Shown here: positions 49,880 to 53,900 of the stretch, piece after piece | Layout of the letters: each line of letters begins with the position of its first letter | Position numbering within the stretch: the first letter of the stretch is position 1 | Assembly (NCBI RefSeq): GCF_030273445.1 | Contig: NZ_CP120678.1 | Span: 969,501 to 1,033,500 of the forward strand | Direction: 5' to 3' | DNA: 64,000 bases | Source of the DNA: Selenobaculum gibii | GTDB taxonomy: Bacteria > Bacillota > Negativicutes > ICN-92133 | The notes under the pieces: generated by a model | Told to the model about the DNA's origin: nothing | Seen by the model: the letters and a program-made list of their open reading frames with translations, nothing else | The model's database searches: none | Program-made: the position numbers and the translations under genes

Positions 49880-51013
49880 CTATGCTTGAGCGAGTGTTTT
49901 TTTGTATTGGAATAAACCAATACAGGTGCAGATAAGGCAAATTAAGTTTAAGACTAATACATCATTCCATGTATTGGGGGAAGTACCTGTTAGGATGATT
50001 TCACGGCAAGTACTAGATAAATACGTAATCGGAAATAGGTAGGAAAGAAGTTTGCTAACTAGACTCATGGATTGATAGGGCCATATATACCCTGATAAGA
50101 TAAAGGCGGGAACAGTATAGATAATAGAGCATCTAGTGAAATTTAATTCGCTTTTTATAAAGGAGGATAGCAGAAGTGTAAATGCGATTGCCGCACAAGT
50201 AAAGGCAACGCCCAATGCACTTAATTCAATGAAAGAAAATAAGTTTGGTAAGTTAAAATAATGAATTGCTGTATAGATTGTAAGTGCGAAAGCAAAAATG
50301 GAACTAAGAAAATATGGCGTTAACTTTGCGGAAAAGTGATAGAGAAGACTGCGATAACGATTGTCAGGAATATTAAGCGGCTGTGCGAGAAAAGATGCCC
50401 CAGTAGAAAGAAATATTCCCTGTTGAAATGCTGCCATTGCAAGACCGATTAGAAAGAAATACAGATAACTTTCATTTTGATTATGCAGTACGCGGTATTG
50501 CAATTGAACAGGCATAACTTTACCAAGGGTATTAGTAGGTGCTGTTAAATTTGCATTTAATAATTGGGCGGATACATTTGCCGTTGTGTTCGCGATGATT
50601 GGCTGAATTGTTGTTAAAAGTGTATTTGTGCTAATAAGATTACTACCGTCAACCGTTAACAGGATTTTGGAACTGATGCCAGTTTTAATTTGCTGCGAAA
50701 AATTTTGTGGGATATAGACTGTAGCCATAGTTATATTTTGATTAAATAAATCTTGCGTTCTAAATTCATTATTTGTAACAGCTACAAGATTTAATCGTTC
50801 ACTATCGGATAATTGCTGAATGATTGCACGACTCAGCGGAGTTTGGTCTTCATCACATATAGCGATAGGAATGTGATTTACAATTTGGGGACTGTATAAG
50901 AGTCCAAATAAAAATAAATAAGCGATCGGTGCTCCAATGATAAAAATGATTCGCCGCGGATCTTTTTTTATCAATAGAGTACATTCTTGCATAAAAATTT
51001 GCCACCAAGTCAT
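49880..51013 (-). CDS. ABC-2 type exporter permease (YhhJ/YbhR-like), second of pair
   Basis: The 377-residue membrane protein has one N-terminal helix (about residues 22-40), a large external domain (about 45-175) and five C-terminal helices, the standard plan of ABC-2 drug or lipid exporter permeases. Landmarks are IPIAICDEDQTPLSRAI and SGYIWPYQSM. Its ATG overlaps the end of the first permease by four bases. No ATP-binding subunit is encoded in the cassette, so it must use one from elsewhere. Confidence 0.9.
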   Translation of the reverse strand: MTWWQIFMQECTLLIKKDPRRIIFIIGAPIAYLFLFGLLYSPQIVNHIPIAICDEDQTPLSRAIIQQLSDSERLNLVAVTNNEFRTQDLFNQNITMATVYIPQNFSQQIKTGISSKILLTVDGSNLISTNTLLTTIQPIIANTTANVSAQLLNANLTAPTNTLGKVMPVQLQYRVLHNQNESYLYFFLIGLAMAAFQQGIFLSTGASFLAQPLNIPDNRYRSLLYHFSAKLTPYFLSSIFAFALTIYTAIHYFNLPNLFSFIELSALGVAFTCAAIAFTLLLSSFIKSELNFTRCSIIYTVPAFILSGYIWPYQSMSLVSKLLSYLFPITYLSSTCREIILTGTSPNTWNDVLVLNLICLICTCIGLFQYKKTLAQA

Positions 51014-52146
51014 GAAGTGACCTCCTTCCTTTTTATCATCGTGAGACGTATTTTCAAAATAATGAAAGCAAGAATAAAAAATATCGCTGCCATGATATAA
51101 AGTGCGATCACATTATACAATAAATTACTGCTTGAGCCTGCTAAAATTAATTTGCGAAGCTCATCACCGGTATAATAGAGCGGCATTGCTTTTGCGAGAA
51201 GTAGACTGGTGTCATTCATCGCGTAGGATGGCCAACTTAATCCACTAAATAAAAGACCAGGCATGATATATAGCAACGGTGTTTGTAAGGCATTCACTGC
51301 ATTTGGGCTGATTGCGGAAAAGAATGAACTAATTGCGATAAGTGCAAGACAAAAAGCACTACCTAATAGTATGATATCGAAGGGATTTGCGATGCAATGC
51401 ACATTGTAAAATATATGTGCTAAATAAGGTAATGATAAAAATATCAGAATGGAACAAAGCCAATAAGGGAGAATCATTTTGCGAAAAGAGTTTTTCAAAA
51501 TAAATGAAATTTTATTTTTATTATGCAAATAAGGCATAAAAATTGGAGTTAGTAAAATGATAAGCGCGATCTGTAGACCGTTTAAGCCCAAACCAAGCAA
51601 CATGAAATTATTGTAACTTATTTCGGGATTATTGATAATGCGGACACTAAGTGTAAGAGGCGCAACAGTGTGAAGGGATTGCGTAGGGAGTTGATTCCCT
51701 GCTTCAAGTAGTTTTTGTCCTGCCGCTGCGCTAAAAGTTTGCATAATTTGCCCCATAGATGACATAACAGCATTGTGAAACATCAAATTAGAAGCATCGG
51801 TAATTACCATAACCGAAGGTGATTTCCCATTTTTTAAATCTTGACTGAATCCTGTAGGAATTTCTACTGCTAATAAAGCATCGCCCGAGGCAAGAATCTC
51901 ATTCATTGTTGCTTCATTTTGTGCGTATGCAACAATCTTATATTTTTCTACATCGTTTATGCAGTTGATTAACACACGACTATTGCTAGATTGATCCTGA
52001 TCGTAGATAACAGTTGGGATATGTTCAACTACTTCGCTTTTATACGTTGAACCAAATAGTAATAAATAAACAATCGGCACCAACCAAAGGAATAATAAAG
52101 ATTTTTTGTTATTTTCATAAAAAGCTAAAATGTTAATTATTCTCAC
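51010..52146 (-). CDS. ABC-2 type exporter permease, first of pair
   Basis: The 378-residue product has the same layout as its neighbour: an N-terminal helix, an external domain with IPTVIYDQDQSSNSRVL, and five C-terminal helices with SGLSWPSYAM. The start is a GTG at 52146, overlapping the adaptor gene by 14 bases. The two permeases probably form a heterodimer, as YbhS and YbhR do in enteric bacteria. Confidence 0.9.
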   Translation of the reverse strand: MRIINILAFYENNKKSLLFLWLVPIVYLLLFGSTYKSEVVEHIPTVIYDQDQSSNSRVLINCINDVEKYKIVAYAQNEATMNEILASGDALLAVEIPTGFSQDLKNGKSPSVMVITDASNLMFHNAVMSSMGQIMQTFSAAAGQKLLEAGNQLPTQSLHTVAPLTLSVRIINNPEISYNNFMLLGLGLNGLQIALIILLTPIFMPYLHNKNKISFILKNSFRKMILPYWLCSILIFLSLPYLAHIFYNVHCIANPFDIILLGSAFCLALIAISSFFSAISPNAVNALQTPLLYIMPGLLFSGLSWPSYAMNDTSLLLAKAMPLYYTGDELRKLILAGSSSNLLYNVIALYIMAAIFFILAFIILKIRLTMIKRKEVTS

Positions 52147-53155
52147 TTCCTGCTAATTTGAATCGCATCCCTGGGCGGATATCTGGGGAGTTTACTTGAA
52201 TTTTTACATTAAAGGTTACAATATCGGTATTATTTCTTTCATCAGAACCACGATACGTTGCAAATTCCGGCTTTTTACTAATATCAACGATGGTTCCATT
52301 GATTTTTAAATCTTCATTACGTCCAATTAAAGAAATGCTTTGATTTAGTTTATAACGATTTAATTCTGTTTCGGGAACTTTAATATTTACCCAATTGTCC
52401 AGTGGATCTTGAATAGCAACAACTGGCATGCCTTGAGAGATAATTGAACCTTCTTCAATGTATTTTGCCGTGATAATTCCACTAAACGGTGCTTTGATTT
52501 CAGTTTCATCTAAAGCAATTTTTATTTGCTCAATCGCAGCATTTGCTTGTTCAATTTTACTGGCAATATTTTTTTCATTAGCAGTATCAACATCGACTTG
52601 TAAAAGACGTGCTTTGGCCGCAGCTAAGGCTGTTTCGGCTTGTTTATAATTAGATTGTGCTACTTGATATTTCGTTTGATAAGAATCAAATACTTGTTGA
52701 GAAACTGCACCAGAGCTTAATAATTCTTGGAAACGTAAAAAATCGTTTTCTGCCATCGTTAAGTCCGCGCTTGCTTTACTTAACCCTGCGATTGCAGTAT
52801 CTACATTAGAATTTGATACTGCATCATTTAACTTTGTAACAGTGGATGCTTGGTTTTGTTGCGCTTGAATTGCTGCGATATTAGCGAGATTTTGATTTAA
52901 TTGTGCTTCTAAATCGCGTGTATCTATTCTGGCAATGACTTGCCCTTTTTCAACAGTATCGCCTTCCTTAACATATAGAGAAACTACACGACCAGGGATT
53001 TTGGAAGTTAAATCGATTTCTTTAGCTTCACTGCGGCCCCATTCTACATTTTGTGCATTACTAGAGGTTGAGCAACCTGAAGTAAAAATTGATAACGAGA
53101 AAAGAAATAAAATAGGGAAGATATAAATATTTTTTTTAGATAGATTTATAAACAT
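52133..53155 (-). CDS. HlyD-family periplasmic adaptor lipoprotein
   Basis: Adaptors of this type link an inner-membrane exporter to an outer-membrane channel. The product (340 residues) has a lipoprotein signal with the lipobox FTSGC, a biotinyl-lipoyl domain (GRVVSLYVKEGDTVEKGQVIARID fragment), a long coiled coil and a beta-barrel region. The frame extends to 53236, but ATG 53155 with AGGAGG is the proper start. A GGTAC-N16-GTACC operator lies about 31-56 bases upstream. Confidence 0.92.
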   Translation of the reverse strand: MFINLSKKNIYIFPILFLFSLSIFTSGCSTSSNAQNVEWGRSEAKEIDLTSKIPGRVVSLYVKEGDTVEKGQVIARIDTRDLEAQLNQNLANIAAIQAQQNQASTVTKLNDAVSNSNVDTAIAGLSKASADLTMAENDFLRFQELLSSGAVSQQVFDSYQTKYQVAQSNYKQAETALAAAKARLLQVDVDTANEKNIASKIEQANAAIEQIKIALDETEIKAPFSGIITAKYIEEGSIISQGMPVVAIQDPLDNWVNIKVPETELNRYKLNQSISLIGRNEDLKINGTIVDISKKPEFATYRGSDERNNTDIVTFNVKIQVNSPDIRPGMRFKLAGSENN

Positions 53156-53185: not shown

Positions 53186-53211
53186 GGTACCAAAAAAATA
53201 TTTTAAGTACC
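53186..53211. promoter_or_regulatory. Operator before the exporter operon (GGTAC-N16-GTACC)
   Basis: GGTAC (53186-53190) and GTACC (53207-53211) flank a 16-base A/T-rich spacer. The same half-sites with the same spacing occur before tetR. It is probably the binding site of the TetR-family repressor encoded next door. Confidence 0.75.
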
Positions 53212-53223
53212 AAGATGGCAAAT

Positions 53224-53260
53224 AAAAATACAACAAATGCTTAAAATTGTTGTATTTTTA
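53224..53260 (-). terminator. Terminator after tetR
   Basis: AAATACAACAA and TTGTTGTATTT form an 11-bp stem with a 10-base loop and a T run on the minus strand, directly after the tetR stop. It lies close to the exporter promoter. Confidence 0.75.
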
Positions 53261-53263
53261 TTA

Positions 53264-53824
53264 TTATTTTTTGTTACCTGTTAATAATCCATGAATCAAA
53301 ATATCTAACATTGCATTGATAGCATCTTTATAAGTAAGATTATTAGAGTTTAAGAATCGATAGGTGGTAAAAGCATCAAAAGAAGTTTTTAAAATTTCTT
53401 GTAAAACATAAATGTTAATATTTCGAATGATCCCAGCATCAATTCCGACTTTTAATACTTTTTCAATACGCTCCATACGAATTTTTCGCGAAAGTTCTAC
53501 TTTTTTCCATTGCTCAGGAAACGCTGTTTTTAAATCTTCATAAATGTGTTTATCAAAAGTTTCTGCTTCATATGGAAGGATGCTAAGTAATGCTTTAAGT
53601 TTATCGATGATAGGCATTTGGGTTTGATAAATTTCCTCTTCTTGTTTTTCTAAATTAGATAATAATATAGTCAAAATAGAATCAATCAAGTCTTGTTTTG
53701 ATGGAAAATTTTCATATAAAGAACGTTTGCTGATTTTTAAGCGTTTGGCCAAATCATTCATTGTAAACTTTAATCCATGAATATTTACTTCTTCCATAGT
53801 CGCAGCCATAATCCGCTCTTTCAT
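53264..53824 (-). CDS. TetR-family transcriptional repressor
   Basis: The 186-residue product has an N-terminal helix-turn-helix (FTMNDLAKRLKISKRSLYENFPSK; fragment) and a C-terminal ligand-binding helical domain. It lies directly upstream of the exporter genes on the same strand, with matched operators before itself and before the adaptor gene, so it very likely represses both. The inducer is unknown. GGAGG precedes the ATG. Confidence 0.93.
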   Translation of the reverse strand: MKERIMAATMEEVNIHGLKFTMNDLAKRLKISKRSLYENFPSKQDLIDSILTILLSNLEKQEEEIYQTQMPIIDKLKALLSILPYEAETFDKHIYEDLKTAFPEQWKKVELSRKIRMERIEKVLKVGIDAGIIRNINIYVLQEILKTSFDAFTTYRFLNSNNLTYKDAINAMLDILIHGLLTGNKK

Positions 53825-53842
53825 TGCTTCACCTCCACTAAC

Positions 53843-53868
53843 GGTACTAAAAAAAACATTTCGGTACC
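53843..53868. promoter_or_regulatory. Operator of tetR (GGTAC-N16-GTACC)
   Basis: GGTAC (53843-53847) and GTACC (53864-53868) have the same 16-base spacing as the exporter operator. The match extends outward as CTAA(C/T)GGTAC on both arms. It begins 4 bases after the tetR -10 box and covers the expected transcription start, consistent with steric autorepression. Confidence 0.8.
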
Positions 53869-53871
53869 ATT

Positions 53872-53900
53872 AGTATAATTTCCTGATAAGAAAATGTCAA
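53872..53900 (-). promoter_or_regulatory. Sigma-A-type promoter of tetR
   Basis: On the minus strand a perfect TTGACA (53900-53895) and TATACT (53877-53872) are 17 bases apart. The operator follows immediately downstream. Confidence 0.85.

Follow-up and report, generated by a model that had tools for sequence, protein, structure and literature searches.

The tetR-hlyD-permease cluster and its paired palindromic sites

The window analysed here is a stretch of 64,000 nucleotides from Selenobaculum gibii, and it contains an export operon read on the minus strand in the order tetR, HlyD lipoprotein and two ABC-2 permeases (contig about 1,019,000-1,023,000; Table 1). The first gene encodes P0001, a TetR-family regulator with an N-terminal TetR_N helix-turn-helix (PF00440, 38.3 bits against a cut-off of 24). 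Its AlphaFold2 model (mean pLDDT 86.5) shows the family's all-helical fold, matches TetR-family PDB structures over residues 1-184, with Z up to 17.1, and places the recognition helix at residues 33-39, KRSLYEN, including Arg34. The hlyD product, read from the ATG at 53155, has a lipoprotein-like signal; judging by the ribosome-binding site and the relatives, this ATG and not the mechanically called TTG at 53236 is most likely the start of the adaptor gene. From 816,821 to 1,108,936 of the contig no PF00005 match over the cut-off, as expected of an ATP-binding subunit, was found. At two orthologue loci (L035 and L036) a gene lies beyond the permeases on the opposite strand.

Table 1. Features of the export operon and its control region (positions within the window)
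Feature	Position	Strand	Sequence or domain	Remark
Predicted operator 2	53843..53868	.	GGTACTAAAAAAAACATTTCGGTACC	precedes tetR; overlaps expected transcription start
Predicted operator 1	53186..53211	.	GGTACCAAAAAAATATTTTAAGTACC	precedes hlyD
Sigma-70-type promoter of tetR	53872..53900	-	TTGACA-17-TATACT	
tetR	53264..53824	-	Pfam TetR_N	TetR-family regulator P0001, 186 aa
Inverted repeat	53224..53259	.		between tetR and hlyD; read by eye
hlyD	52133..53155	-	HlyD_3, HlyD_D23	membrane-fusion protein, 340 aa from ATG 53155
ABC-2 permease 1	51010..52146	-	ABC2_membrane_3	below cut-off to permease part of RbbA
ABC-2 permease 2	49880..51013	-	ABC2_membrane_3	below cut-off to permease part of RbbA

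An earlier note on this DNA had pointed to a GGTAC-N16-GTACC site before each of tetR and hlyD, and when the letters were re-checked both sites proved exact. They lie 657 bp apart, each preceding a gene of the one cluster. The tetR promoter that the same note described as perfect is the sole exact match to TTGACA-17-TATACT in the window (0.03 expected); operator 2 begins past a gap of three bases, so the wording that it starts 4 bases after the promoter is correct. Many homologues also show, on inspection by eye, a TTGACA-like element ahead of the operator. At operator 1 the promoter scan detected none. On sequence evidence, a palindromic operator at the regulator's own and at neighbouring promoters, which is a TetR-family trait, appears to be present. 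The inverted repeat between tetR and hlyD is a possible bidirectional terminator and is absent from the list of the terminator scan. Moreover, at four related loci (L005, L009, L011 and L014) a strong hairpin, pairing at 15, 13, 14 and 16 of 16 positions, respectively, was seen between tetR and hlyD directly before the operator array, and it is possibly the terminator of tetR.

The exact pattern is nearly unique. In the whole genome (one contig of 2,679,003 bases) GGTAC-N16-GTACC occurs three times, twice as the operators and once inside the reading frame of leucyl-tRNA synthetase (leuS, named by eye from the translation); the reversed control pattern occurs 0 times, and a first-order Markov model predicts 0.006 copies per 64 kb and 0.23 per genome. 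No further exact copy therefore lies outside coding sequence, and the description of the circuit as self-contained holds only for exact GGTAC-N16-GTACC sites, degenerate ones being a separate matter. The spacers were also said to be A-rich, which is true of both sites (AT 0.94 and 0.81, against 0.647 in the window overall) but is not conserved in relatives. The two GTAC half-sites of each 26-bp operator are separated by 20 bp, close to two turns of the helix; the inner third half-site seen in relatives is weak or missing. Since GTAC is itself a palindrome, inverted and direct half-sites are indistinguishable.

Without its flanks, GTAC-N16-GTAC is found 13 times in the genome versus 8 for the reversed control: two are the operators, two look intergenic and nine lie in open frames, one of which (L076) is only 378 bases long. 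The two intergenic-looking ones lie in a near-identical promoter element with GTGTACA-type half-sites that is present twice in this genome (L070 and L071, around 1480-1570, contig ~120,761 and ~124,311). One copy precedes an ABC-exporter operon and the other an acetolactate synthase gene, both named by eye from translations, and these sites probably belong to another regulator.

Half-site arrays beside orthologues and matching sites beside distant homologues

Among 150 relatives, ten regulators with 46-51% identity were taken as orthologues, and class-wide 11 of 380 genomes, our own included, gave a match at E 1e-40; the named relatives, Anaerospora, Lucifera, Sporomusaceae and Megasphaera, point to class Negativicutes. 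All ten orthologues, as well as the more distant regulator L024 (41%), adjoin hlyD and permease genes, and the HlyD orthologues beside the regulator are 40-63% identical over 11 loci. The ten tetR-hlyD-permease clusters contain the same half-sites as the window; the motif is thus present beside orthologues, where the earlier note had suggested looking, and beside distant homologues as well.

Nine of the ten orthologue clusters carry arrays before hlyD with a period near 10 bp and at least 3 GTAC or ATAC units. Across 11 loci, with the window's among them, spacings of 10, 20 and 30 from GTAC to GTAC were counted 8, 9 and 5 times, where first-order Markov samples give 0.04, 0.01 and 0.03, and distances one base off these values are likewise present. 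Given these arrays, the window's site can be viewed as a phased array that has just two units. Before tetR, GTAC-N17-GTAC stands in place of the N16 form in 7 of the 10 orthologues, and an inner third half-site was read by eye. A uniform operator scheme is contradicted by two loci: L012 carries GGTACCAGAAAAAATATTATAGTACC before hlyD, in the same place as operator 1, but has no operator before its tetR; at L024 one array precedes the whole operon.

Upstream of TetR homologues, an exact GTAC-N16-GTAC was found in 33 of 77 regions, against a first-order Markov null with a mean of 0.075 and a maximum of 2 in 1000 draws. These regions comprise 71 of 87 homologue places, the 16 weakest being left out, together with 6 named loci, among which L040 duplicates L099. 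The spacing seen most often is N16 (33 pairs), followed by N17 with 8. Of the 44 regions without an exact N16 site, some have N17 or one mismatch, and others have another class of operator or none. A homologue from Paenibacillus (L037) carries GGTACCGAAAAAACTTTTGTGGTACC, and more distant homologues, with many records of Lachnospiraceae and Erysipelotrichaceae among them, carry GAAAC-N16-GTTTC in the same 26-bp frame, in which the half-sites of other lineages are GAAAC, AAAAC or GAAAA. Upstream of tetR at L111, L118, L119 and L232, hybrid-looking operators that combine a GTAC half with a GTTT half were noticed by eye. No relatives were found on viral contigs.

Residue 34 and the outermost operator base

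Residue-base correlation of the kind pursued here has reportedly been used in protein-motif co-evolution studies of other families, LacI and IclR. Our first set comprised 197 unique regulators from 200 hits, repeated loci being excluded, and 75 of these had exact sites of a single class (41 GTAC, 34 GAAAC). In these 75, residue 34 holds the full mutual information on the outer base of GTAC-core operators (0.979 of 0.979; best other printed column 0.777), and residues 34 and 38 alone among the printed columns hold it for GTAC versus GAAAC. The sample was then enlarged to the 137 of 271 regulators (197 + 74) that have exact sites of a single class. Among 56 GTAC-core operators, G..C is outermost for 20 of 20 Arg34 regulators and for 0 of 36 others, and residue 34 is the sole column of 186 with full information on this base (0.940; next 0.633).

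On trees built without the helix columns, residue 34 and the outer base each change 6 times. The independent pairs on supported branches are all concordant, 5 of 5 (p 0.0625) and 4 of 4 (p 0.125), their number being too small for significance to be reached. Near sisters differ accordingly: L126 and L248 (Arg, GGTAC) from L275 (Gly, AGTAC), and L124 (Arg, GGTAC) from L221 (His, AGTAC); the window's own regulator, with Arg34, is nested in a Ser/Thr clade. The covariation suggests that P0001 itself reads the two sites, and the claim of repressor specificity that had been drawn from the two sites alone gains support from it.

A broader recognition code did not hold. It was fixed before the held-out searches as R34 (with E/D38) for GGTAC..GTACC, S/T34 for WGTAC..GTACW and K34 for GAAAC..GTTTC. 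The held-out set had 74 new unique regulators, two of which, with Gly or His, received no prediction, and the code agreed with 7 of the other 72; as a general rule it is rejected. Strict matches were 3 of 37 for R34 (3 of the 34 with E/D38), 2 of 3 for S/T34 (all Ser) and 2 of 32 for K34. Two R34 regulators (L249 and L277) have GAAAC..GTTTC operators, 24 with Arg34 and Glu38 (the class of G444) carry AAAAC..GTTTT with A..T outside, and 19 with Lys34 carry GAAAAT..ATTTTC. Residues 34 and 38 thus fail as a full separator of GTAC from GAAAC, and Arg34 alone, in view of the 24 regulators with AAAAC..GTTTT, fixes neither the half-site nor the outer base. Examples in the 26-bp frame, in the class of G444, are AAAACT..AGTTTT at L260, L261 and L262 and GAAAAT..ATTTTC at L226, L227 and L230. 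Among Arg34 regulators the eight best columns all separate GTAC from AAAC fully, so that the responsible column is indistinguishable and the split follows phylogeny. What stands is a rule for residue 34 that is conditional on a GTAC core, was recognised after the fact and fails outside that core; in the new set G..C is found in 3 of 3 Arg34 regulators and 0 of 5 others.

The proposed circuit and its relation to known systems

We consider it very probable that the two sites are the operators of the adjacent, autoregulated TetR efflux repressor. At operator 2 the repressor would cover the point where its own transcript begins, limiting its own synthesis, and at operator 1 it would shut off the hlyD-permease-permease export operon, whose promoter is presumed to lie before hlyD. 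A small molecule, presumably a substrate of the pump, would release it. Two dimers would most likely bind each 26-bp operator, and each dimer would use an outer GTAC together with a weaker half-site roughly 11 bp further in. Arg34, in the first part of the recognition helix, would read the outermost G of GGTAC. Lys33/Arg34 of P0001 align by eye, over a shared SK motif, with Lys44/Gly45 of DarR and Lys43/Gly44 of CprB. In the excerpts of the respective papers, the DarR residues contact half-site bases, with K44A and G45V each essentially abolishing binding (PMC10636190), and the CprB residues contact bases as well (PMC4150764).

Two dimers per operator are plausible: published lengths are 22-32 bp for operators of dimer-of-dimers TetR regulators and 15-17 bp for single-dimer ones (PMC4150764, excerpt), and 26 bp belongs to the longer class. 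Conservation puts the apparent length of the operator at 26 bp, beyond the approximately 20 bp that marks the QacR type. The recognition helices of a dimer are 38.2 Å apart on DNA in CprB (PMC4150764, excerpt) and 39 Å in DarR (PMC10636190, excerpt), and with GTACs 20 bp apart and, in relatives, a further half-site inside at 9 or 11 bp from an outer one, a separation of ~38 Å would suit two overlapping dimers. Alternatively, one dimer per operator may reach both GTACs with its helices or use one half-site, an unlikely but serious reading. The two-fold symmetry, with no more than two strong half-sites in each of the window's operators, would fit it, DarR tolerates a poor half-site (PMC10636190, excerpt), and the four half-sites of CprB offer it differing bases (PMC4150764, excerpt). 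Yet 38-39 Å is roughly one helical turn and 20 bp nearly double that, the published size ranges speak against it, and many relatives have the third, inner half-site or arrays of 3-5 units.

Somewhat less likely is that the repressor also acts on genes elsewhere by way of degenerate or TGTACA-flanked sites, such as the two intergenic-looking GTAC-N16-GTAC before the acetolactate synthase gene and the ABC-exporter operon; these have outer T and A, which 0 of 20 GTAC-core Arg34 regulators use. We regard as improbable a different regulator that controls both promoters by coincidence: GTAC is a short palindrome usable by other factors and binding by P0001 is a prediction, but the sites accompany this type of TetR gene in different genomes and in different kinds of operon, and no other column covaries with their outer base as strongly as the P0001 helix residue does. 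An origin without regulatory role, as chance palindromes or KpnI-like (GGTACC) sequence, which the unflanked counts alone might allow, is scarcely credible, as the flanked pattern is seen three times against 0.23 expected, twice in one cluster, and conservation upstream of homologues led to the rejection of a chance origin.

The preferred reading, a repressor acting on its own gene and on the adjoining export operon, has counterparts in several known systems. We take the half-site of QacR from S. aureus to differ from the GGTAC half-site of the window's operators. QacR is also absent from the 14 PDB sequences matched by P0001 at E 0.01, yet shares the TetR-family fold (1jt0_A, a QacR-DNA complex, Z 14.9 to the P0001 model). 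Like the regulator proposed here it is an efflux repressor, with a long operator of 28 bp bound by two dimers (PMC4150764, excerpt). DarR of mycobacteria and Rhodococcus has two overlapping dimer sites and a Lys-Gly pair that matches Lys33-Arg34 (PMC10636190, excerpt), but it binds c-di-AMP, has Gly at the variable position and uses a shorter, 20-bp operator of overlapping palindromes. CprB of Streptomyces coelicolor binds a long element, as a dimer of dimers on 22 bp (PMC4150764, excerpt), but is of the gamma-butyrolactone receptor type and recognises another DNA element. The gene arrangement resembles CecR (YbiH)-ybhGFSR of E. coli, with a TetR regulator, a membrane-fusion adaptor and two membrane components (PMC7190983, excerpt); the window has the corresponding TetR, HlyD adaptor and two ABC-2 permeases, whereas the ATP-binding gene, ybhF in the E. 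coli operon, has none nearby to match it.

A TetR regulator adjoining a pump under its control is a known kind of circuit. New, and all computational, are the assignment of the operator, the extent to which it recurs and the pairing of residue with base. In the open-licence literature we found no TetR operator of this sequence, no report of TetR with HlyD in Negativicutes and no characterised member of this TetR subfamily, and in the excerpt of PMC7480387 GTAC is present only in a primer.

On the wider scale we propose, tentatively and with slightly less than even confidence, a widespread TetR subfamily of Bacillota with a constant 26-bp frame and swapped half-sites (GGTAC, AGTAC, GAAAC, AAAAC, GAAAA), in whose GTAC class residue 34 would read the outermost base, while orthologues would tune repression by 2 to 5 helically phased units. 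TetR operators are usually hard to predict from protein sequence. The present analysis provides a TetR subfamily with an operator that has good support, together with a pairing of Arg34 and the outer G that is testable by single substitutions; if the wider proposal is true, the subfamily would lend itself, as a natural data set, to work on how TetR regulators recognise DNA by a code.
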